Origin: Neoscytalidium dimidiatum
Lineage: Eukaryota; Ascomycota; Dothideomycetes; Botryosphaeriales; Botryosphaeriaceae
DNA length: 64,000 nt
NCBI GenBank assembly: GCA_037367355.1
Contig: CM074695.1
Coordinates: 248,001-312,000, forward strand
Direction of reading: 5' to 3'
Position 1 is the stretch's first letter. The number at the start of each line of letters is the position of its first letter. The position numbers were made by a program, and so were the translations under genes. Shown piece after piece: positions 2,945 to 52,093 of this stretch. The notes under the pieces were generated by a model. It was not told where the DNA came from, searched no databases, and worked only from the letters and a program-made list of their open reading frames with translations.

Positions 2945-5164
2945 ATGGTACTGTGTTCATCCTGTCAAGCGTTCGACATCCAGACGTTCAAGAAAGCCCC
3001 TCTGGGCATGCGCGGATATGAGCAACGCTCGGTGGAACAGGCAGCTCTTGCGGGCTGCACCTTTTGCGGATTTCTTTGTGAGAATCTCAGCGCCGAGATG
3101 CAGCGTGCGCGCGCAGCGTATGGAGACAAAAGCTGGGTGCACATGAGGATGAGCAGGGATCATGAATCAAGCTCCGCGGCGAAGAGCAAGGAACTTGGTT
3201 GCAACACGCTCGACATTATTCTCGCGCCTCAAGACCTCCTCGTCGTGGGCGATGAGCGTATCTTCGATGACTGTGGCGACAGATGCATCATTGCTCCGCT
3301 TGAGCTACGTGTTGTTGCGGAACAAGGTAATCAGCCCTGCCTCATGTCGCCCGAAGACTAAATCTGTCCAGACAGCCCAGCTGCATTGAATGGAGATATT
3401 GTTGGGAGATATCTTGGCGATGATCCAGCGTCTGAGATTCATCTCCAAGCCATCCGTCAGTGGCTCGACGAATGTCTGTCAAAGCATCCGCAATGTCGCC
3501 GTACCGCGTCAGGAGCTGAAATAAACGCGAAGCATGTCCAGCTACCCACCCGCTGTATAGACGTGACAGGAAATACTCTGAAGCTCCGGGATACTTCACA
3601 AACATGGAGTAGTTACATCACTCTCAGCCACCGGTGGACTGAGCAGACGCACAAGAGCAGAACTGTGGGGAGTATCGTCGGTGCGAGAACGGAAGAGATC
3701 AACCTCTCCAGCCTTCCGAAGACGCTTCAAGATGCAATCTCTATCACCAGGAGGCTAGAAGTTCCATACCTGTGGGTCGACTCCCTATGTATCATCCAAG
3801 GCGATGATGGAGGCGCCGACTGGCTGAGAGAAGCACCAAATATGGGCCAGTATTTCCAAAACTCGCTCTTTACATTATCAGCAACCGGAGCTTCGAACAG
3901 AAAAGGCGGCTGCTTCCAGGAACGCCCTCCCGGAATCGTTGGGCCTTTGGTCAGGCTCCCCTACCGGGATCCACATGGAAGGAAGATGGGACATTTCTAT
4001 GTCCATAAAAGGGAAACATCTGCTACGCAAGAATACATAGACCGTGTTAACAAGACTGAGCTAATGACCAGAGGCTGGGTCCTCCAGGAGAGACTTCTGA
4101 GCCGGAGGGTAATCCACTTCACTGAATCACAACTTTTCTTTGAGTGCGCAACACACAATCCAAGAAGCGAATGCATGGAGACCGTATTCGTCGACCCGCG
4201 CTCCCGCTGCATGTCCGAGATTACGCATACCCCTTCTGTCGATGTCTCCTCCCTATGGCATAGCGGCAAGACACCCTTCATTGAAATCTCGACCTGGGAG
4301 ACGAGCATCTCTCACAGCGACCACTGGTATAGCATCGTGGAGCAATTCTCGGCAATGGCCCTGACGAAACCCGCACAAGATAGACTAGCTGCTGTGGCTG
4401 GTATCGTTGGGGAATTCCAGAAGATCCTTGAAAGGGACCACGCTGATCAAAAAATGCCACTTTACCTAGCTGGTCTCTGGCTCCACGACATCCATTATGG
4501 GCTCCTTTGGGGGTCATGCCACGAAGGTGAGCGGCCTCAGCTTTCCGGGTGCGAGACCCCCAGCTGGACTTGGGCAACGTACATGTCCCCCGTCCGTTGG
4601 CATGGTGGGTCCGCAAATACGGAGAAGAGCTGTGATATAATCGGCCTTTCAGGTCTGAGGAGCATATGGCATGATGTAGAGGCAAAAAATGGGTTTCGGG
4701 ACCTACCTACCACGGATTCATTCGGCGTGTTGACTGCCTCCATACACCTGAAGATCCGCGGAAACATCCAGCCCATCATGTTGAGCGGAGCGTTCTCGGA
4801 TGACCACCATGAATACCTCAAGACATGGACAGGCATCGACACAAGTGTTCGTAGTCGTCAGTGGCAGCTGGTATATGATCTGGACGGCCGTGAAAAACAT
4901 GGCTGGGCTTCCATCGACAACGCCGCTGCCGCCGCCGAGTACGCAGCCGGAAAATATCTCGTACTGCCTGCGTTGCACGTCTCAACCACAACAGGCGTAC
5001 CCGGAGGTATTGAGTTTGGTTACTTTGGCTTCACGCATCACGTTTACAACTTTCTACTCCTGCGACAGGTCGATCACGGACGCTTTCAAAGGCTTGGCAT
5101 GGGCAAAATCTTTACCAAGAACTTCTTCAAAGATGCGAGCAGCCAGGAGGTTGTCTTGGTTTAA
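2945..5164 (+). CDS. HET domain protein (heterokaryon incompatibility family)
   Basis: Predicted 721-residue cytosolic protein. One intron spans 3327-3380 (donor GTAATC, branch GACTAA, acceptor CCCAG); the join reads VVAEQ-AALNGDIV. The N-terminus carries the C-S-S-C ... G-C-T-F-C-G cysteine pattern common at the start of long fungal HET proteins. The HET domain itself is clear: Y-I-T-L-S-H-R-W at about 206-213, Y-L-W-V-D-S-L-C-I-I-Q at about 257-267, and the R-G-W-V-L-Q-E-R block further on. HET proteins trigger cell death or growth arrest after fusion of genetically different hyphae, and many homologues have unknown specificity. The start at 2945 is the first ATG of the frame. Nothing shows which partner it senses; no NLR or prion-like gene lies beside it. 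Confidence 0.88.
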
Positions 5165-13554: not shown

Positions 13555-14502
13555 TTGATGGGGGTAGAGTGGGCGGTGGGTTGATACCATTTACTCTCGG
13601 TGGGTGGTTTCGGCTGGTTGGGTTATTCGCCCGGCGTATCTTTCAAATAGGGTTTGGAATGCCCATCAGATGTGCTTAAGATGAATTGATGAGAAATTCC
13701 CGTGCGATGAAACAAGCTCGATTTTGCACCAGAAACAAATGTGCCTGTCGAGCCACAGTTTTAGAAGTACAAGAGACCAGAGAGGCAAACACGCGGCGCA
13801 TAAATCACGAAATCCTACCAAAGGACGAGATTTAGCTTTTTTCATCAACATTGCCCTCTTATCGCATAAAATAACCATGCAGAATGACAGCCTTTCGCAT
13901 TGTCTCGGATATGTAACCGCATGGGTATTCCTTTACCGATTGCCCTTTCGATTTGCCAACTGTTTGCATAGTCACACCAAGCAACCACCATGTCGTTATA
14001 TTGAAAGACCGAGCATTCTCTAGGCTCATCTGAGCAGCCGAAGCTATCAGTGCATATGCAGGAGTATCGGTCTCCGATACCCGATATTTCACAAGACATT
14101 GATGTTCTGTCTACTGGCCAATCACCGAAGAGTGTCCAAAGCTGAGCGGTACGTCAACTTTGGCATAGAATGTGTGGCCGTATCAAGTCATTAGATGCAG
14201 CCCGTACCGGCGTAGGCACGTGAACTAATGAGATAACAATTAAAATTGGTGCAGATAGTCGGGAAGAAATTGAAGAGATGGAGCACTTCGGGCACGTCAA
14301 CACTGCTTCAGTAAATAACAGAATTGCTTCTGTGGACAGTTCTCGGTTAGCAGGCAAATGGATAGCCAAGACTCCAGATGTCGTCGATCGGCACAATCCC
14401 CGCTTTTACATTCTCCACACGACTCATTACCAGAGTCGCGATCAAAGTACGAGCATATCAACATACTTTCCTCAGGCCGTCAGGCCTACGCTCGCGTCAA
14501 TA
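13555..14502. other. Intergenic region with an in-frame upstream extension
   Basis: About 950 bp. From 14278 an ATG opens a frame continuous with the transporter that follows, adding 75 residues with no membrane or domain character (Ser/Thr/His-rich). I treat it as 5' leader and start the transporter at 14503. The rest shows no coding signal. Confidence 0.4.
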
Positions 14503-16194
14503 ATGCCGCCATCAAAATCCGATACCGCTGTTCAAGTGATACGCCAGGATGCCAACAACAGCGGCGGTGAAACCATGCGCTCTCCCATCTATTTCCCTAA
14601 TTATTCAACTAGGCCGCACTCAACGCTGCTCAAACGTTCAAGTCGACAGCGCTATCCTGGCGCGCTCCTCTTCAATCTTCTCTCCTTTACTCTTCCTGCT
14701 TTATACGCTACCCTGTCTAAGCTCTGGGTTGCCAACATATCAACGTCTCTTGTTGCCACCACCGACGCCTACACTTACATCTCTGTCGTCGCCGAGGTAT
14801 TGAACGAAGGACTCCCGCGCGCATCGTGGCTAATTATTGGTAACCTAACATCGCGCACCTTTACCCAACGTCTTACTCTCACCTACACGTTAATCGTATT
14901 TCAAACGGGTTTGGGACTGATAGTGTCTATCGTCATCATTACCATCGCGCCCTCCTTCACGTCCGCCTTTGTGCCGCGCGAGACGCGCGCCGCCTCTGTG
15001 AAATACGTTCGGATTAGTGCCTTCTCAGCACTCGCTTCCGCTATCGAAGTCGCCGTGGCCGCCAGTACACGGGCTCTCGATCGGCCGGACGTCCCTCTGT
15101 TGATCAGCAGCGTCAAGTTCGCGATCAACATCACGCTTGATCTACTGCTCATCTCGCGGTTTCACGTTAGGACACACAATCCAACTGTCAACACGCAAGC
15201 TACAATACGGCTGATATGCGACCTTAGCGCTGCGGGAGTAGGCTTGGTATATTTCCTTGCAAGCAGCCTGCGCGAATGGAACAGGAAGGAAGATGGAGCG
15301 GCGCAGACGGCGAGCGCGACTAGAGAGCGGCCAAGGCTTTCGCTCGCTGCACTGAAGACTTTACTACCACCTGGCTCTCTAACATTTCTCGAGTCGGCAA
15401 TTAGAAACGCGCTGTACCTGTGGCTAGTGAGCGGAATCGTGGCAATGGGGAATGAGTACGCAACAGCTTGGGGCGTATTCACGACTATTCGATGGGGCCT
15501 TGTCATGGTTCCCGTTCAGGCGCTAGAGGCTACTTCCTTGGCATTTGTCGGCCATTCATGGGGCGCTTGGAGGACAAGAGTCGGCGAGCACTCACGACGG
15601 CCCAGAGTCTCGCCGCAGGAACTATTTGGTAAGCAAAAGCCCCCTGAAATATGGGCAACGTAGCCCGAGTTTAATGATTTTAGTCATAATGCGTCCGGCG
15701 CTCTTATCCTGTGTAATAGCTCTAGTCTTTGAGGTGCCATTGTGCATCTTCCTCGCTCGATGGGGAGCTCGCCGTTTTGCGTACTATCTGTCTGGCGCAG
15801 AGACGGTGTCAGCCATCACAGAGAAGATGTGGAGAGTATGTAATGCCCACTTCTCAATTCTTCTACAGCTGGACTAACTTGGGGGAAAAAGACGATAGAC
15901 TGGACGTATATCTTCTATGCCCTCAGTACACAAATGGCCACGATTTTGCTGGCAACCCGTCCACTCTGGTATCTCTGTCAATCATTGGTGTCAAACATTC
16001 TCTGGGTACTGCCGTGGGCAATCGTGGTTAGTAATGTGGGAATCACACCCGAAGACGCCTGGAAATATCATTCAATCGTCTTTGGTGGATCCCTCGTATT
16101 CAGCTTCTTCGACATTCTTCTATTCGTCCTTGCTTGGGCGCGGAGACTGAAAATGGGGAAGATGAAGCTGCCGCCCCTGCAGCGCCAAACGTAA
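14503..16194 (+). CDS. MATE-like multidrug/toxin efflux membrane protein
   Basis: Predicted 526-residue polytopic membrane protein in three exons. Introns are 15629-15683 (GTAAGC ... TTTTAG) and 15836-15891 (GTATGT, branch CTAAC, AAAAAG). About ten to twelve hydrophobic segments are visible, for example [37 protein letters not shown] and, after the second splice, [13 protein letters not shown] and [15 protein letters not shown]. The repeated layout and the [20 protein letters not shown] segment resemble fungal MATE-type (multidrug and toxic compound extrusion) relatives, which use ion gradients to export organic cations. The classification is by general resemblance, not by a diagnostic motif. 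The start at 14503 is chosen because the hydrophilic lead is then of usual length; an alternative start is 14278. Likely plasma or vacuolar membrane. Confidence 0.7.
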
Positions 16195-17234
16195 CGACCC
16201 ATCTCATAATGGTACAGGGAGCAGAAGAAGAAACAAATGTGTGACACCGCACTTAATTTTCGAGCAGGTAATGATGCTATCTATATCCTACACGAGACTA
16301 TCCAGCATCAACGGCAATACCGTGTGAACTTTGCCAAGTGAAACTGTTCCGAACATTATCTCTTGAAATATCGACCTTACGTGAGTTCAAGTGTCGATGT
16401 GATTCCCACTACAATGAGTCCATAAGTATTGGGTGAAGGACAGAGATAGGTGGGGGTGTCACACTACATCAGAGAAACGGGAAAGCTGTAGTGCCACAAG
16501 GGAAAGCCACTGGGATGAAGCCTGGTGATTGCTTCCCTCGCTACTTTTTGCAAAGCGTGCGCGGCTGAGATTTGTCATTTGGGATCATCAAATAAACGCC
16601 AAGCACCATATTACACAGTGTGGAGACTTGTAACACCCTAGCTCTAACGGCTGCGAATGAGGTCCTGCATCTATCTCCAAGCCCCGCAAGAATTTCCGAA
16701 TGTAAACCAGTGCACGTACCGGAATGCGTGCCTGGTTCCAAGTGTGGAGAGCTACTCCTTCCTTCTCTCCCGAAGCCTCCTACTATTCTTATATAAAGAA
16801 CAAATAGGCTGTCGAATATAGTTGTTGGATGAGAATATTCTTTTGTTCTCGAGGCTGATTTCATGTCAACATGGCAGACACGATCCGAGTATGATTTCAT
16901 CAGTGCTCATGCGTCCTGCAAGGGTGTCTGCGGTGTTGAGAGTTGTGTGTAACGTTATCAATTAGGCCAGATTTGCAGACCGCTATACCCCGTTCGATAT
17001 CTGAAATTTTCAGGATTTTGCTCATTGTTAAATTGTCTGTTCCAATGCCCCGGAGAAGTTGCGCGTATTGCTCTGCAAATCACCTTGCTCCACCAAAGGC
17101 GCTCAATTTTTTCGCCACGAGTTGAGTTCCGTGGAATCTTTCACGTCCGTTCTATCTTCGACTATAAACTAAGCAGGTTGTGCAATGCGCAATGCCCATT
17201 CGATCTTGATCTGTATAGCTTCCAAGAAAGAAAT
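16195..17234. other. Intergenic region, no gene supported
   Basis: About 1.0 kb, lower in GC than flanking exons. Scattered frames of 60-119 codons lack family features. The last 200 bp should be the promoter and leader of the GIY-YIG-like gene. Confidence 0.45.
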
Positions 17235-18743
17235 ATGAGGAGAGCAATGAGGTGAGTCTATTTTCCTTTTATGTTCTTCGTTCGGTAATGTTAGGTCGCG
17301 TTTGGCAAACATGTGTCCGAACCACATCTTCGTAGATACTGTGCTTTGTAAGCGTACTAACCTCTAATTGCCGGTACCAGTCTTCTACGCAGCACGAACA
17401 TGCGACCAACTGAAGCATCTAGGAGGCTGCTCAGTCCTGTTTCGGTGTTTGGTAATACTGCACGGGATTATCTTCGTGAACATGCAAAGATAGCGGCTAT
17501 CAAGGAATACGGTGCAGACGGGCTTCGCGCTCGACGCGATACGACCAAAAAGGAGAGAAGGGATAAAGAAGGTCCGTTGGAAGATCGAGACATCAAGTTT
17601 CATCTAAAAAGAGGATTATCATTCGTGGAACTTGAAGTCTGTCTCCAAAGGACTAAAGAATACATTTACAGAAGGGCCAAACAGTTCCACCACGAGGAAT
17701 TGAAAAGGTTGACCAAGAACAAAAGAGGCGAATGGTCCAATGAAGAAATAGAAGCGCTGTTGCTTCTTCGGAGAGAGAGCAGATCTACGAGAGAGATTGC
17801 GGCGTTGCTGCGTAGACCTGTCCAGAATGTTCGTAAGAGACTCCACGAGCTGGAGGATCGCATTTCTGCTACGGATGGCCCTCCCGTCACTGAAGGATCA
17901 CATGAGCTGCCTCCGGCCATGGGAGAGGCTCTTTTCGAGTCTCGATTTTTCCAAATTTGGCAAGGTATGATGGCAGACAAGGTTACTGAGACTTGGCGGG
18001 AGATAATCTCACAGAGAAGTGCGGACGACTGGTTATTCATTATCTCAAAAGGAATCCCGGAGCCTTTGAAGCATTTGCTCACGAGATTGGACAACCCTTC
18101 ATTCAGGGATCTACAAGAATTGGCTTGGACGCACACAATCAAGGCCGGTGTCTATGGTAGACTGTTGGTCCCACGATATTACGACGTCTCGATGAGGCAC
18201 GAACGGCTTCTTTATATTGGTTCTGCAACCCGGTTCGGAGCTGGTTTGGATGGAACGATGGAGCAGCACGTGAAGAAGAAAAAACCCGGACTGGTAAAGA
18301 GGTTGGAAAAGGAGATAGACATTAAGAACCTTAAGAGGCCGGGTCAGTTCATAACCCTGATGAGCATGAATATGGACAGCTCGAAGAAAGAAGATATCCT
18401 TGAAGTAAAAAGAACAGTGACCATAGCTGAGGCTATCCTTACCATCTGGTTGGGCGCATTCAGAGACGATCTTCCTCTTTGTTCTCACTACCCCTGGGAT
18501 TCAGCGCTGAAAAACTACGTTGGGTCTTGCTGGCGCAACCCCTTGACAAAAAAGCTCGAGGATCCTGATGCTAAAGACGAGAAAAAATGGAGAAGACTTA
18601 TGCGTCTTCGTAAGAAGCTTCTACCACCCATTCGCCATGATTACCTGAGGTACGGTACTCCGGATAAAGAGAAGTTTCAAGAAACAGGCATGCCGGGCGA
18701 TCGGAGATACGTAGATGAAGGTAAAGGAGGGCGAAAGAGGTAA
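17235..18743 (+). CDS. Myb/SANT-like plus GIY-YIG-type nuclease-like protein
   Basis: Predicted 459 residues. A tiny first exon (17235-17251, MRRAM) is followed by an intron 17252-17380 with a GTGAGT donor and a perfect TACTAAC branch site; CAG at 17392 is an in-phase alternative acceptor. If the first exon is wrong, the protein starts at 17400 (447 aa). Residues about 120-165 (GEWSNEEIEALLLLRR, then STREIAALLRRPVQNVRKRL) look like a Myb/SANT or helix-turn-helix fold. Residues 262-264 are G-V-Y and 284-286 are Y-I-G (L-L-Y-I-G-S-A-T-R), the GIY-YIG signature. R290 and H302 (E-Q-H) lie downstream, and E356 in T-I-A-E-A-I-L-T-I-W sits where the metal-binding glutamate is expected. GIY-YIG domains cleave DNA in repair, restriction and homing enzymes. 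The C-terminus is Lys/Arg-rich. Activity is inferred only. Confidence 0.68.
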
Positions 18744-19445
18744 TGGAAGGGAAAGAGAGAATGAGGAGACGGGAAAGCAAAGGAAGGAACTGAAGGGCGA
18801 GTTTATCTAGCTACGGGCGAAAGGGCATCCGCGAGGCGTGACGCAAAGGGTGGCGACGTGTCATCGGAGAAAATCGCTTACTAGAAAAGCGGGAAAGAGA
18901 GGTGTTTTTGTATTGTCACTGGAGATCTAACAAGACACTTGTATCCAATTCGGAATGAATAAAGAATGTCTTTTACTCATTCACATTACATCATCCCGAC
19001 CAAGCCCGAATAAAAAGGGAGGCTCGCCAACATAAAAGAACTCGAAAGCAGCAAAAGCACAACCCCCGCGACGAGACTTTCTCCCTGTAAACTCAGCCAT
19101 GCATATAAATGGTATAGTAGGTATCTGCCAAACGACGCTGGTGAACTGACCACTTGCCTGAGTTTTATCCGCCAAACGATGAAAAGCTAAAGTAAAAACC
19201 TCCAACAATGCTCGGGACAAGAACAAGCGCGACAGAAAACGCCAGAGAGCTATGTAGGTATATACAACAGCCGTTATCAGGAGTATCAATGCGCGAGATA
19301 GAAAGAGAAGATCAAAACGCCAACTCCTACTGTACATACGCATTTGCTGTGGGGTCATCTATCTTTAACAGGGGGTGGAAAAAAAAAAAGAAAACATGCT
19401 AAAGGAAATAACGTGTCCCCATGCACGGTATTTACAGTGTCCGTC
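18744..19445. other. Intergenic region between convergent genes
   Basis: About 700 bp between the stop codons of two convergent genes; it should hold both 3' untranslated regions. The sequence is A-rich near 18950 and 19380. No gene is seen. Confidence 0.5.
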
Positions 19446-27646: not shown

Positions 27647-29631
27647 TCAATCATCGTCATCTTGACCCTCAATCCCCGCACCTTCGTTCATAGGTCCCAT
27701 TAAATCATCCACACCGTCTTCGTCGGCTTCGGTATCCTCATCCTCGCTCTCAGCCGTGACAGTCGAGTCGCGATCTTCCACGTCTTCTTCCACATCGTCT
27801 TCGTTCTGAGTAACAGCGTCCTCGTCTCCCGGCGCTTCCTTGTCAGACCGGCCCGGTAGATCATCCGCAGCCTTGGCTGAGCTGTTCATGGCAGTCTGAG
27901 ACTGCCGATCAGTTGCATCTGCATCCGCCATTTCAACGTCGGTGTTCTGGAGTCCCTGGTCTTTTCGCCAGAAGCGGAAGTTCTGTTTGGCTAGGTTGCG
28001 TATATCGGCAAGCATCTTATATTCCTTTTCAGATACTGTAGGGTCCCGGCCAACTGACGTCTCCTCGAGGTTCTCGAGGGTGATGAGGTCAGGAAAGTCA
28101 ACTATCCGCCTGTAATCTTCGTCCTTCGGTATGTCACCCTTCATGATTACGGAGATCTTGTCACGCATCAGCACCTTGACCTTCGCCCAGGTGCCATTAA
28201 GGTACCATCCATCCGACTTTATCTGTTTCACTGGTTACCATTGAAAATCATGGAGCTTTCTCACTGCACTCACGTTACTTTCCGAGCGCAGCCTGTCTGT
28301 ATCAAGAATTCTACGAAGCTGTGGATCGGTGATGTCGCATGCTTGCCAAACCTTGCCATCAGGAGTGAGGGTCTTGCCATCGAAGAGATGAGAGGTCTTC
28401 TTTTTGTCCCTCGGCTTTCCTTCCCTGCGCCAGACATTGCGCGCATCCATCCATTTGTTCGGATCTTCGCTCGACTCTTTCTCTGTTGGCATCACAATTT
28501 TGAACATGAGTGTTTGATAGTGTCGATATTTGGGATCCTTGCGCGGATCGACTCCAAATTTGATCAGGGTATCACGCCAAGGGCCGGATTTGAAAGAATA
28601 GCCGACGTAGGCATATGAGCTTCGGATGGAATCGTCAGTGGGTGCGTCGATGTGATTCATGAGATAGCGTTTTGTCATTATAGGTCTCTCATCAAGAAGT
28701 TTGCGCATATTGGCGATGGTGCTGCGGATATGAGGATCCAAAGCCTCTTCTGGAGGAAGAGGGACTGGCGACTCGTGCAAGATACTCTCAGCATCGATTT
28801 CCACAGAATGCATGATAAATTTGCGGCCAGCAGTCGGGTTGTACATTATCTGCCGGCCTTCGGCGTCTTGATGAATTTTGACGGCCGGATTCTGTCGGTA
28901 AGAGTAGTTGTAAGGCACCTCAATCATAGAGAACTGGGCAGACGGGCCAACATCCGGCTCCGATTTGTTACCACGCTCATCGCTTAATTTGAAGTTCTTG
29001 AGCTTTGGATACTGGAAGGGAAGAAAGGTGTCGCGGAGCATGTTTGCCAGTGGTAGTGTTGAGGTAGCATACTGGAAATCGGGCAGCTGGCGAAAACGGT
29101 GGTTCTCATGAGCCAAGCCTACGGGCTGAATGCTGTAATTGTCAGGATTGTCGCGCAGACTTTGCAGAAGGATCTGGGCATCCGTATGGGGAGCCTCGTT
29201 TGCTGCCGGGTCATCCACCCACGGGCCGTCAGAGCCTCTTTTGCGTTTCCTGCCCGTCCGCTTAGGCACGGTGACGCGCAAGAGCAAGTTCTGCGTCTTC
29301 ACGAAAGAGGACATGACAGGCTTAGCCATTGGATCGTCTGGGCGTAGAGAGGCACCAATGGTCTTGTCGCGGTCCTTGGTGGTGAGGAACTTGGCCGGTC
29401 AGATGGCGGCAGGAGTTGACGGGCGGGGAGACATACCTTGTCCAGCACGCCGCGGCCGCCCAGCGACTTGATGCCATTGTCGATATTCTTGACAATGCAC
29501 GGGTGTTCGATACTTACGACGGCAGCGGGCGGCACAAGCAGCGCAGGCGACGAGGGCTCTGCGGGGCGCTGCTGGTGGCTGAGCTGAGCGGGCGGCGGGT
29601 CGTAGAGGCGGTCGACGGCATCGTCGTCCAT
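27647..29631 (-). CDS. TFC1: Transcription factor TFIIIC subunit 5 (tau95 / Sfc1 / GTF3C5)
   Basis: Subunit of the RNA polymerase III factor that recognises the A box of tRNA gene promoters. Predicted 628 residues in three exons: 29631-29437, 29389-28274 and 28222-27647 (donors GTATGT and GTGAGT). The first acceptor could instead be 15 nt further on (exon from 29374), also in phase. The N-terminus has the family signature E-H-P-C-I-V-K-N-I-D-N-G-I-K-S-L-G-G, followed after the splice by L-R-P-D-D-P-M-A-K-P-V and L-L-L-R-V-T-V-P-K-R. The middle carries the V-P-Y-N-Y-S-Y-R region and the long basic DNA-binding part (R-P-I-M-T-K-R-Y-L-M-N-H, then F-K-S-G-P-W-R-D). The last exon has S-D-G-W-Y-L-N-G-T-W and ends in a long acidic tail of Asp and Glu, as in yeast and human homologues. 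It diverges from the PP2A gene. Confidence 0.9.
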
Positions 29632-49348: not shown

Positions 49349-51190
49349 TCAGACCAGTTCAAAAGTCTCCATGTCGTTGTCCTCCTTTCCCTGCATAGCC
49401 TGCCCTTGCATTACTCCGTGGATGTAGCAGTCACCGATTAGTTCGTACTGGATCTTTCCCTGATACCCTTTTTGGCATCTTTTCTTCCGAAGGACGAAAG
49501 GTGAACGTCCACCTTTCAGACAGCAGATAATGTCTTCCTCGCGCGCCCTTTTCGGACCCATTCCAAAATAGCCACTCGTGGTCCTGATGGTGCTTCGATA
49601 TATTGCATTCTCGACGAAGCGGTCTGCAAGCTCACTATTTCTCTCAAATGGTTTCTGTTCTATTCCTTCGTGGAAAGTTTCCCAGAACTTCCTGCTGAGC
49701 TCCCCAAGGTTCTCCGGAATTCCGTTGGTCATAAGATGAAAATTCAGTGTAAGGAAGAGTGCTACTTCCGGAGACTCCCCAGGTAGTCGATAACAATTGG
49801 ATGCGTCGTTGCGCACATTCTTGCAGAAAGACCATACTTCCTCCCAGGCATCATTGTTCGTACCATGGTCTCGTAGAATGGGGTCGGAGCGGATCATGCG
49901 CACTTTCTCAATGCGACCGATTATAATTCCTGTCACTTCGAGGATTTCCCGATATAGATCGGCATTGGGCTCCGTCAGGATGGGTTGTTCGGCATTAGGT
50001 TGCGCCAGTATGAGTTGTCCGGCATGTGTATTGAACATTTTCAAATTGAATATTCTGGAGGGGCTGACTGCTTCCGTTGAAGTTGAAGCATACCTTTCTG
50101 GGAAGGCGTTCCAATCAGGAACCCAGCTTGGCGTCCGTACATGGTACCCAGACGGTGGTTTCGTATACACGTCATTGACCGCGCTGAGTACATCAAGCGT
50201 ACCACTCTTGGCTATCAATGCTCGAGCACAAGAGATGTATACCTCTCTCTCCGACAGGCTATAGTCGATTGGGATCACTGGTCTCCGTGCTCTTGTGATC
50301 ATTTCGAGGAGAGCGAATACCCGATCTTTCCCGTCCGTAACACCCAGTCCCCTTGTCTCGATAAGAAGGTCGAGGAGCTCCAGTTCCGTTCCTTCTGCCA
50401 GAATGTGATCTGCGAGATTTACTATTGGTGGAGCTTTGAATCGAGTCGAACGTTGGGGAATCCTGGCATCTCTGTTATTTATGTATTTAATGAGGTTGGT
50501 TGCCTCGTCAGCAAATTTCTGCCATGGAACTGTGTGGTTTCCAAGGATGACCATGGGATCTTTGGGCAGAATGACTTCCTGCAACACCCAGGTGCGTCTG
50601 AACCAAGCTTGCTCCAAGATCATGAGCATAAAAATAAAGGCTCTCGGCACCTGGGGTCTTCCGTTATTATATACTTGATTCTCGATTTGAGTCCGCAGAT
50701 CAGTCATCTTGCCTTCGTCATCTTGAAGGGCTTCTCCGGGATATACAAGGACTCGTTTGGCTTCACGGAAGATTTTTCCCATAAGCCTAACTTGGTGGCC
50801 CTTTTCGTCGTGGTCACTCTGATTTATGCATACAGCATCGATCCAGACGGCTCTGACAGCGAGCTTCGTATCTCGGAGATGCTTCAAGAGCCGGTGACAA
50901 TTCCTTGTCACCTTCAAGATGGCCTTTTGCTCCGAATCGACAGAGATTAATATTTCTTCGCTCCCCTCGCCCCATGTATACGACAGTGCATCGTACTCAG
51001 GCATCGGCTCCTCGTCAAGTCGTACTTGGGCGATTGTGCAGATAATTGGGTCGTCAGCTTTGCCAGGCGAGATATGGAGAAGCCTAATTGACTCTCCAGG
51101 CCCAAGAGTTTGATACTGGTATTTTGGAAAAGGGGACGTTCGGCCAATGTCCACTGAACCAAAAGGTCGGGAATTGTTCTGTGAGGCCAT
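49349..51190 (-). CDS. HET domain protein (heterokaryon incompatibility family)
   Basis: Intronless 613-residue protein of the common short HET class. Early segment I-R-L-L-H-I-S-P-G-K-A-D-D-P-I-I-C is the usual lead. The HET domain follows: Y-D-A-L-S-Y-T-W-G-E at about 66-75, R-A-V-W-I-D-A-V-C-I-N-Q about 112-123, H-Q-V-R-L-M-G-K-I-F, V-L-V-Y-P-G-E, and A-W-F-R-R-T-W-V-L-Q-E-V. The C-terminal half ends with the family's G-D-C-Y-I-H-G-V-M-Q-G block. The start used is the first ATG (51190); six in-frame codons lie upstream without an ATG. No partner gene is adjacent. It differs in class from the HET gene at 2945, so the two are not a recent duplication. Confidence 0.93.
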   Translation of the reverse strand: MASQNNSRPFGSVDIGRTSPFPKYQYQTLGPGESIRLLHISPGKADDPIICTIAQVRLDEEPMPEYDALSYTWGEGSEEILISVDSEQKAILKVTRNCHRLLKHLRDTKLAVRAVWIDAVCINQSDHDEKGHQVRLMGKIFREAKRVLVYPGEALQDDEGKMTDLRTQIENQVYNNGRPQVPRAFIFMLMILEQAWFRRTWVLQEVILPKDPMVILGNHTVPWQKFADEATNLIKYINNRDARIPQRSTRFKAPPIVNLADHILAEGTELELLDLLIETRGLGVTDGKDRVFALLEMITRARRPVIPIDYSLSEREVYISCARALIAKSGTLDVLSAVNDVYTKPPSGYHVRTPSWVPDWNAFPERYASTSTEAVSPSRIFNLKMFNTHAGQLILAQPNAEQPILTEPNADLYREILEVTGIIIGRIEKVRMIRSDPILRDHGTNNDAWEEVWSFCKNVRNDASNCYRLPGESPEVALFLTLNFHLMTNGIPENLGELSRKFWETFHEGIEQKPFERNSELADRFVENAIYRSTIRTTSGYFGMGPKRAREEDIICCLKGGRSPFVLRKKRCQKGYQGKIQYELIGDCYIHGVMQGQAMQGKEDNDMETFELV

Positions 51191-52093
51191 TTCGTGGGGG
51201 TCGGACAATCAGAGGGTGCGATTTCGAAAGTTGCACACTAAAGATGCGGTGAAGACGTAGATCGACTTTTCAAGCAGGGCGGGTGGAAGAAGCCTGAGGA
51301 ATGCATCTAAGTTGCGGCTGCGCACAGAGTAGATTCGGCTGTAGTTAAGACTCGTCTTCGTGCGTTGTCATTGCATGCTTTTCAGCTGTAGGCAACACCC
51401 GTATTTGTGCGTTGTCATTGCATGCTTTTAGGCGACGTGGCTAAGCGATGGACCAATGACCGTTTACTGCAGCTAATTTTGTTGAGTAGGAATATGTAGA
51501 ACTGTATCAAGGTCACTAACCCGCGCTGTAAACAGTGTGATGTGGTACGTTTGCAGTTCGACAGAACAGGGCTAGGCAGAACTGACGAGGCAACCTGGAG
51601 AAAGGCCCTGTTCGGAAGATGCAAGGTCGAGGTCATCATGCAGGCTAAGTTTAGATAAGCTGGAAGAACAGGGTTATAGGAATCATATATGGCTGATAGA
51701 CGAGGACGATTCGCGGTCGAGTTATCTGGCTGTCTGGCAAAGTTGAAAAAGTGATCCACCTCAGCATCACCAAGAACGCCATGGCAACCACAATAAATGA
51801 CGTGCCGATAGAACAACCAAACAGGAAAATTGGAAGGCCTGAGAGCGGGGAAAGGTAGACATTACTTGCGCTCTAAGGAAGCTACATACTGTGACGTGAG
51901 AAGACCTAGACATTATTCCATACAGACAATACCGCACGAAACTGAGACCGAAACCGAATACCATTTGGGTGAAGCAAATCCCCCAATAAGACCGAGTACG
52001 AACCATGAACAAGAACCGAGTACTGACCTCCGCGCGGCTAGCATCCGCCGAGCGTCATGACATTCATGCGCAGGTACGAGCGCCAAAACAACG
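51191..52093. other. Intergenic region, no gene supported
   Basis: About 900 bp between two minus-strand genes; contains the HET gene promoter and the 3' end of the MurQ-like gene. A short direct repeat is visible: the words TTGTCATTGCATGCTTTT recur near 51365 and 51412. No gene is seen. Confidence 0.45.

Follow-up and report, generated by a model that had tools for sequence, protein, structure and literature searches.

Gene structure and genomic surroundings

We show that the 64 kb window (the whole stretch of DNA analysed, which sits in contig C1 of a genome of 43.76 Mb and 40 contigs) carries on its forward strand a two-exon gene for a predicted protein of 459 amino acids, laid out as follows:

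17235..17251, + strand: putative exon 1, 17 bases, the start of the 459-amino acid model; this start is predicted, and further upstream starts are possible
17252..17380, + strand: putative spliceosomal intron, 129 bases, with a GTGAGT donor, a TACTAAC branch (CTAAC at 17357-17361) and a CAG acceptor at 17380
17381..18743, + strand: exon 2, with the stop TAA at 18741-18743; its first ATG opens a 447-amino acid frame at 17400
18958..18963, + strand: possible polyadenylation signal AATAAA, 215 bases past the stop; another lies at 19009

Removal of the intron at 17252-17380 gives the protein of 459 amino acids whose numbering was used by the earlier note on this DNA and is kept here unless the 447-amino acid frame is named; a second in-frame CAG, ending at 17392, is an alternative acceptor. 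This is a real gene, since its long frame is intact and the intron signals are present. The gene frame holds 460 codons without a stop, which at the local base composition would be open by chance at one place with a probability of about 3e-12, and the other five frames of 17400-18740 contain 11, 12, 23, 23 and 25 stops. The GC content by codon position (0.53, 0.41, and 0.50) follows a pattern that resembles the neighbouring frames, the third-position value being the lowest among nine frames measured in the window. The start of the protein is Arg-rich, with 8 Arg, 1 Asp, and 2 Glu within the first 40 residues.

The gene is single-copy. In a whole-genome search the whole protein, each half, and the flanking DNA match only themselves, bar a 157-base upstream piece (window 16042-16198) with 69% identity to C6:3160738-3160894, which is perhaps an exon of a paralogue. 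Repeats around the gene are short (14-19 nt), and mobile-element marks (copies, terminal repeats, and a mobility partner) were not found for this gene, in line with the earlier claim that it stands alone without a transposon or intron partner. Paralogues were also sought with three DNA patterns over the whole genome, the backwards patterns serving as control. Pattern 1 gave 8 places (7+1) against 6+9 for its control, pattern 2 gave 3 places (2+1) against 20+16, and pattern 3 gave 115 places (48+67) against 64+70. By eye, none of the inspected places (8/8 of pattern 1, and 3/3 and 30/115 of the other two, 33 loci) resembled a relative except the gene itself. Six of these 33 loci had a loose GIY-like triplet upstream and were rejected, with stops nearby in all. 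As to the neighbourhood, a MATE-transporter-like frame lies upstream (window 14224-15660, + strand; MatE E 0.0005, below the family cut-off), and the window also holds two HET-domain (heterokaryon incompatibility) frames, at 3362-5161 (+ strand) and 49352-51208 (- strand), with Pfam E values of 2.4e-25 and 3.8e-29.

Protein searches returned no relatives. For the whole protein none was found at E 0.001 among the 7997 scored candidates sharing most words, drawn from 5.8 billion proteins, and for residues 235-375 none at E 10 among the 91 candidates scored. The search sees only proteins that share 5-residue words with the query and are 0.55-1.75 times as long, so an orthologue that has diverged fast or lacks annotation could be missed. 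As a control, the Tau95 frame of the same window (28238-29398) gave 498 matches in the same search, being 84-87% identical to proteins of Lasiodiplodia, Neofusicoccum, Diplodia (two species), and Macrophomina, which places these five Botryosphaeriaceae species in the database without implying that each proteome is complete, and which makes a host from that family most likely. Among viral and prokaryote contigs there were 10 and 25 pattern matches, of which tblastn confirmed 0, and the best tblastn matches to phage records had E 5 for the whole protein and E 9 for the C-terminal part.

A helix-turn-helix/Myb-like N-terminal half

The N-terminal half contains two nested features:

17514..17864, + strand: helix-turn-helix/Myb-like region matching PHROG 323, residues 39-155 of the 447-amino acid frame (51-167 of the 459-amino acid model)
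17751..17846, + strand: best single helix-turn-helix, Sigma70_r4_2-like, residues 118-149 of the 447-amino acid frame

PHROG 323 (D5-like transcriptional regulators) matches the larger region with E 1.2e-8; with the first 165 residues shuffled (eight times) or reversed, no value was below 0.073. Over the whole genome the gene is the best match to this profile (5.9e-8), and the one other place (0.043) looks by eye, from its frames, like a Myb protein. Since the same profile also matches in 12 of 14 control prokaryotes, the match indicates a helix-turn-helix and not phage descent, and the likeness to D5-like phage transcriptional regulators and to Myb-like proteins is confined to the helix-turn-helix region. 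Pfam Sigma70_r4_2 on a protein fragment gave E 1.9e-5 and 24.6 bits, under its cut-off of 25.7. Other comparisons were negative: no Pfam Myb family was among the matches listed up to E 10; a self-comparison gave no sign of two tandem like repeats in the region, the score being equalled by 25% of 5000 shuffles; and the two matches of a PDB search with this part (E 0.55 and 0.61) were neither of them helix-turn-helix factors by name. A PADLOC type I methyltransferase model matching residues 91-158 (E 0.0061, 12.9 bits) was taken as chance.

The front half is thus well supported by its sequence profile as helix-turn-helix/Myb-like and DNA-binding in kind. The profile search bears out the earlier note in calling the protein DNA-binding, the PHROG 323 match and its shuffle control being the support; of the Myb/SANT-like helical segment that it described, the helix-turn-helix/Myb-like kind stands and a Pfam Myb assignment does not.

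Motif layout and profile searches of the C-terminal half

The C-terminal half carries the following motifs and candidate residues:

18147..18155, + strand: GVY, residues 262-264
18213..18221, + strand: YIG, residues 284-286, within LLYIGSAT
18231..18233, + strand: Arg290, 4 residues after the G of YIG, the Arg named by the earlier note
18255..18257, + strand: Thr298, which takes the Arg position in 2 of 5 MAFFT modes, those that keep His302 in register
18267..18269, + strand: His302, candidate helix His
18300..18302, + strand: Arg313, within GLVKRLEKE and 43 residues before Glu356; 1 of 5 MAFFT modes aligns it with the Arg
18429..18431, + strand: Glu356, in TIAEAILTIWLGAF, candidate catalytic Glu, placed by eye

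Much of what had been read from this half by eye is confirmed: GVY and YIG are separated by 19 residues, Arg290 and His302 follow, and Glu356 lies 70 residues after YIG. The pair is commoner than composition predicts. When the protein is shuffled 200,000 times, the pattern G[IVL]Y-x(6,35)-Y[IVL]G turns up in 0.144% of the products, and of the 520 window frames of at least 60 amino acids 1 has it, that of this gene. With Ser or Thr after YIG the figure for the 200,000 shuffles falls to 0.0135%; these frequencies are to be read with the fact that the patterns were written after the protein was seen and that many other motifs could have caught notice.

Searches with family profiles did not recover the family. 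With E up to 10 the Pfam, NCBIfam, and PHROGs listings, whose filters drop most weak matches, contain no GIY-YIG family, and the 34 places matched by PF01541 over the whole genome (33 on contig C40 and one, an SLX1-like exon, on C1) do not include this gene. A profile of nine GIY-YIG domains from the same genome gives it 2.3 bits, a score matched or exceeded by 5 of 500 shuffles and by 0 of 99 window frames, and an 18-sequence GIY-YIG profile gives it 1.7 bits, equalled or beaten by 75 of 2000 shuffles; the latter profile without its SLX1 rows still scores two SLX1 sequences at 12-13 bits, compared with 1.7 for the gene. The hhalign scores were matched or exceeded by 3/200 shuffles with a mitochondrial profile, which speaks for the domain, by 21/200 with SLX1, which speaks against it, and by 3/200 with the joint profile, a test that misses distant members, because a true domain (L027) also scores low against SLX1. 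PHROGs with the C-terminal part returned one family of unknown function (E 0.21), and AlphaFold2 on the single sequence gave uninformative models, with a mean pLDDT of 34.7 for the 447 amino acids and 34.2 for residues 232-385.

These results sustain a strong rival explanation, which could well be correct, in which the C-terminal half is not GIY-YIG at all and the gene encodes a helix-turn-helix/Myb-like, transcription-factor-like protein whose unrelated C-terminal half shows the motif layout by coincidence. The profile tests at or near shuffle level speak for it, as does a PDB search with the C-terminal half, in which none of three matches was a GIY-YIG chain and the best was a plastid ribosomal protein (E 0.082). 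However, the rarity of G[IVL]Y..Y[IVL]G[ST] in shuffles and its uniqueness among the window frames argue against coincidence.

At the catalytic Arg the gene departs from its comparators. We compared it with 18 of them (eight C40 domains, the SLX1-like exon, four PDB SLX1 chains, four phage enzymes, and 1mk0); chain 1ln0, with Ala at the Arg position and presumably an engineered mutant, was left out. Counted from the G of YIG, 18/18 have Arg at +8 and His or Tyr at +12, whereas the gene has Gly294 at +8 and Arg290 at +4. With the mitochondrial profile hhalign opens a 4-residue gap that brings Arg290 into line with the catalytic Arg, and five MAFFT modes place there Gly294 twice, Thr298 twice (with His302 in register), and Arg313 once. 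Beyond LLYIGSAT no alignment was stable across the MAFFT modes and hhalign, and no supported alignment reached Glu356. The Arg-to-Glu distance is 40-53 residues in 17 comparators (18 were examined, the 1mk0 stretch being too short, and two of the PDB SLX1 chains have Gln at the Glu place), and in the gene Glu356 lies 43 residues from Arg313, 58 from Thr298, and 66 from Arg290; from YIG it is 70 residues away compared with 48-61 in the comparators. Since only Arg313 has a comparator-like distance to Glu356, it appears to be the best-placed candidate, which would imply a loop 19 residues longer in an unstable alignment, and Arg290 as the catalytic Arg is doubtful. According to PMC1564403, the superfamily is marked by the two motifs, after which come an Arg in the middle and, in the C-terminal part, a Glu. 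The gene has this full set only if one of the candidate Arg residues is the right one. In sum, the motif layout fits the GIY-YIG nuclease that had been proposed, while a family profile match is missing, our own profiles stay near shuffles, and the catalytic Arg shifts from one alignment to another.

Known GIY-YIG systems and a possible role for the protein

The GIY-YIG homing endonucleases (PF01541; I-TevI 1mk0; the C40 set) resemble the gene product in having GVY and YIG, a later His and Glu, and an attached DNA-binding part. They differ in that the gene gives no significant profile match and has no Arg at +8 after YIG, its motif gap is 19 residues compared with 10 in 1mk0, and it is a nuclear gene with a spliceosomal-type intron. 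The DNA-binding part follows the nuclease in I-TevI type enzymes, whereas it is N-terminal here. NUMOD domains are likewise fused C-terminally in the GIY-YIG superfamily (PMC1564403). Contig C40 (307,956 bases), which is taken for the mitogenome, is GIY-YIG-rich; many of its PF01541 places occur again about 176.9 kb further on, so the assembly probably goes round the molecule more than once. With SLX1, represented by the genome's own exon (G000:C1:316796-317002), the gene shares YxGS and the QH pair; however, SLX1 has RRLRQH where the gene has GTMEQH, and the profile gives no support for SLX1 kinship. This exon lies about 5 kb past the window, has the usual Arg and His, and resembles solved SLX1 structures (best E 5e-29). 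The T5orf172 genes (PF10544), whose domain we take to be of GIY-YIG kind, are also nuclear fungal genes matching such a domain, but a genome search up to E 10 did not place our gene among the four loci found (C12:1955072, C5:151892, C10:188846, and C12:1651902, all on contigs other than C40). Ascomycetes have a protein family with a YIGSAT-like motif, on which no result here depends. In the titles and abstract openings of the open-licence literature we found no nuclear fungal protein combining GIY-YIG with Myb/HTH; many papers on fungal GIY-YIG concern mitochondrial introns, and PMC4226871 and PMC10512326 both deal, in the part of their text available, with mitochondrial enzymes.

We favour, with a probability slightly above one half (about 0.54), a lineage-restricted helix-turn-helix protein whose GIY-YIG-like domain has diverged strongly. 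The gene, nuclear and single-copy in a Botryosphaeriaceae fungus, would then be lineage-restricted or evolving fast, and the N-terminal helix-turn-helix/Myb-like module of its product (about residues 51-167) may bring the protein to DNA. Residues of about 250-400 would form the GIY-YIG-like domain, with loops longer than in homing enzymes or SLX1, in the order GVY and YIG strands, helices, and then Glu356, with Arg313 as the best-placed candidate catalytic Arg. From these parts we infer a protein that might act as a helix-turn-helix-targeted DNA-processing protein. That this domain can cut is a tentative prediction, which takes slightly more than half of this probability. The rest goes to a sub-case of the same reading, by itself rather unlikely and somewhat less likely than cutting, in which the GIY-YIG-like fold has lost its Arg, with Thr298 in its place, and was reused without cutting to bind DNA or a partner. 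Consistent with such a loss are the Gly at +8 where all comparators have Arg and the Thr at the Arg place when His302 is in register, but Arg290 and Arg313 fit other alignments and Arg313 lies at a comparator-like distance to Glu356. A flat reading of the Arg as simply lost was withdrawn after these alignments and Glu distances. Least probable is that the gene is a decaying leftover without function, mobile or horizontally acquired in origin. The lack of relatives in protein searches and the low third-position GC would agree with this; the intact frame and intron signals, the absence of a second copy, and the shortness of the repeats nearby speak against it.

A more specific version of the diverged-domain reading, to be regarded as speculative, is that of a nuclear fungal family, seen once so far, in which a Myb-like/HTH head is joined to a long-loop GIY-YIG domain with Arg313 as catalytic residue, or to a domesticated, non-cutting remainder of one, and which may serve as a lineage-restricted factor in genome defence or gene control. 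The Arg-rich start would allow import into the mitochondrion, where this genome carries many GIY-YIG genes. If the fold is not that of GIY-YIG, the gene would be an orphan helix-turn-helix/Myb-like protein of ordinary interest. If the diverged GIY-YIG-like fold is true, the nuclear genome of the fungus would encode a GIY-YIG-like protein that has a DNA-binding head at its N-terminus and a catalytic Arg that was displaced or lost, and the nuclease fold would have been retained or put to another use away from introns and repair.
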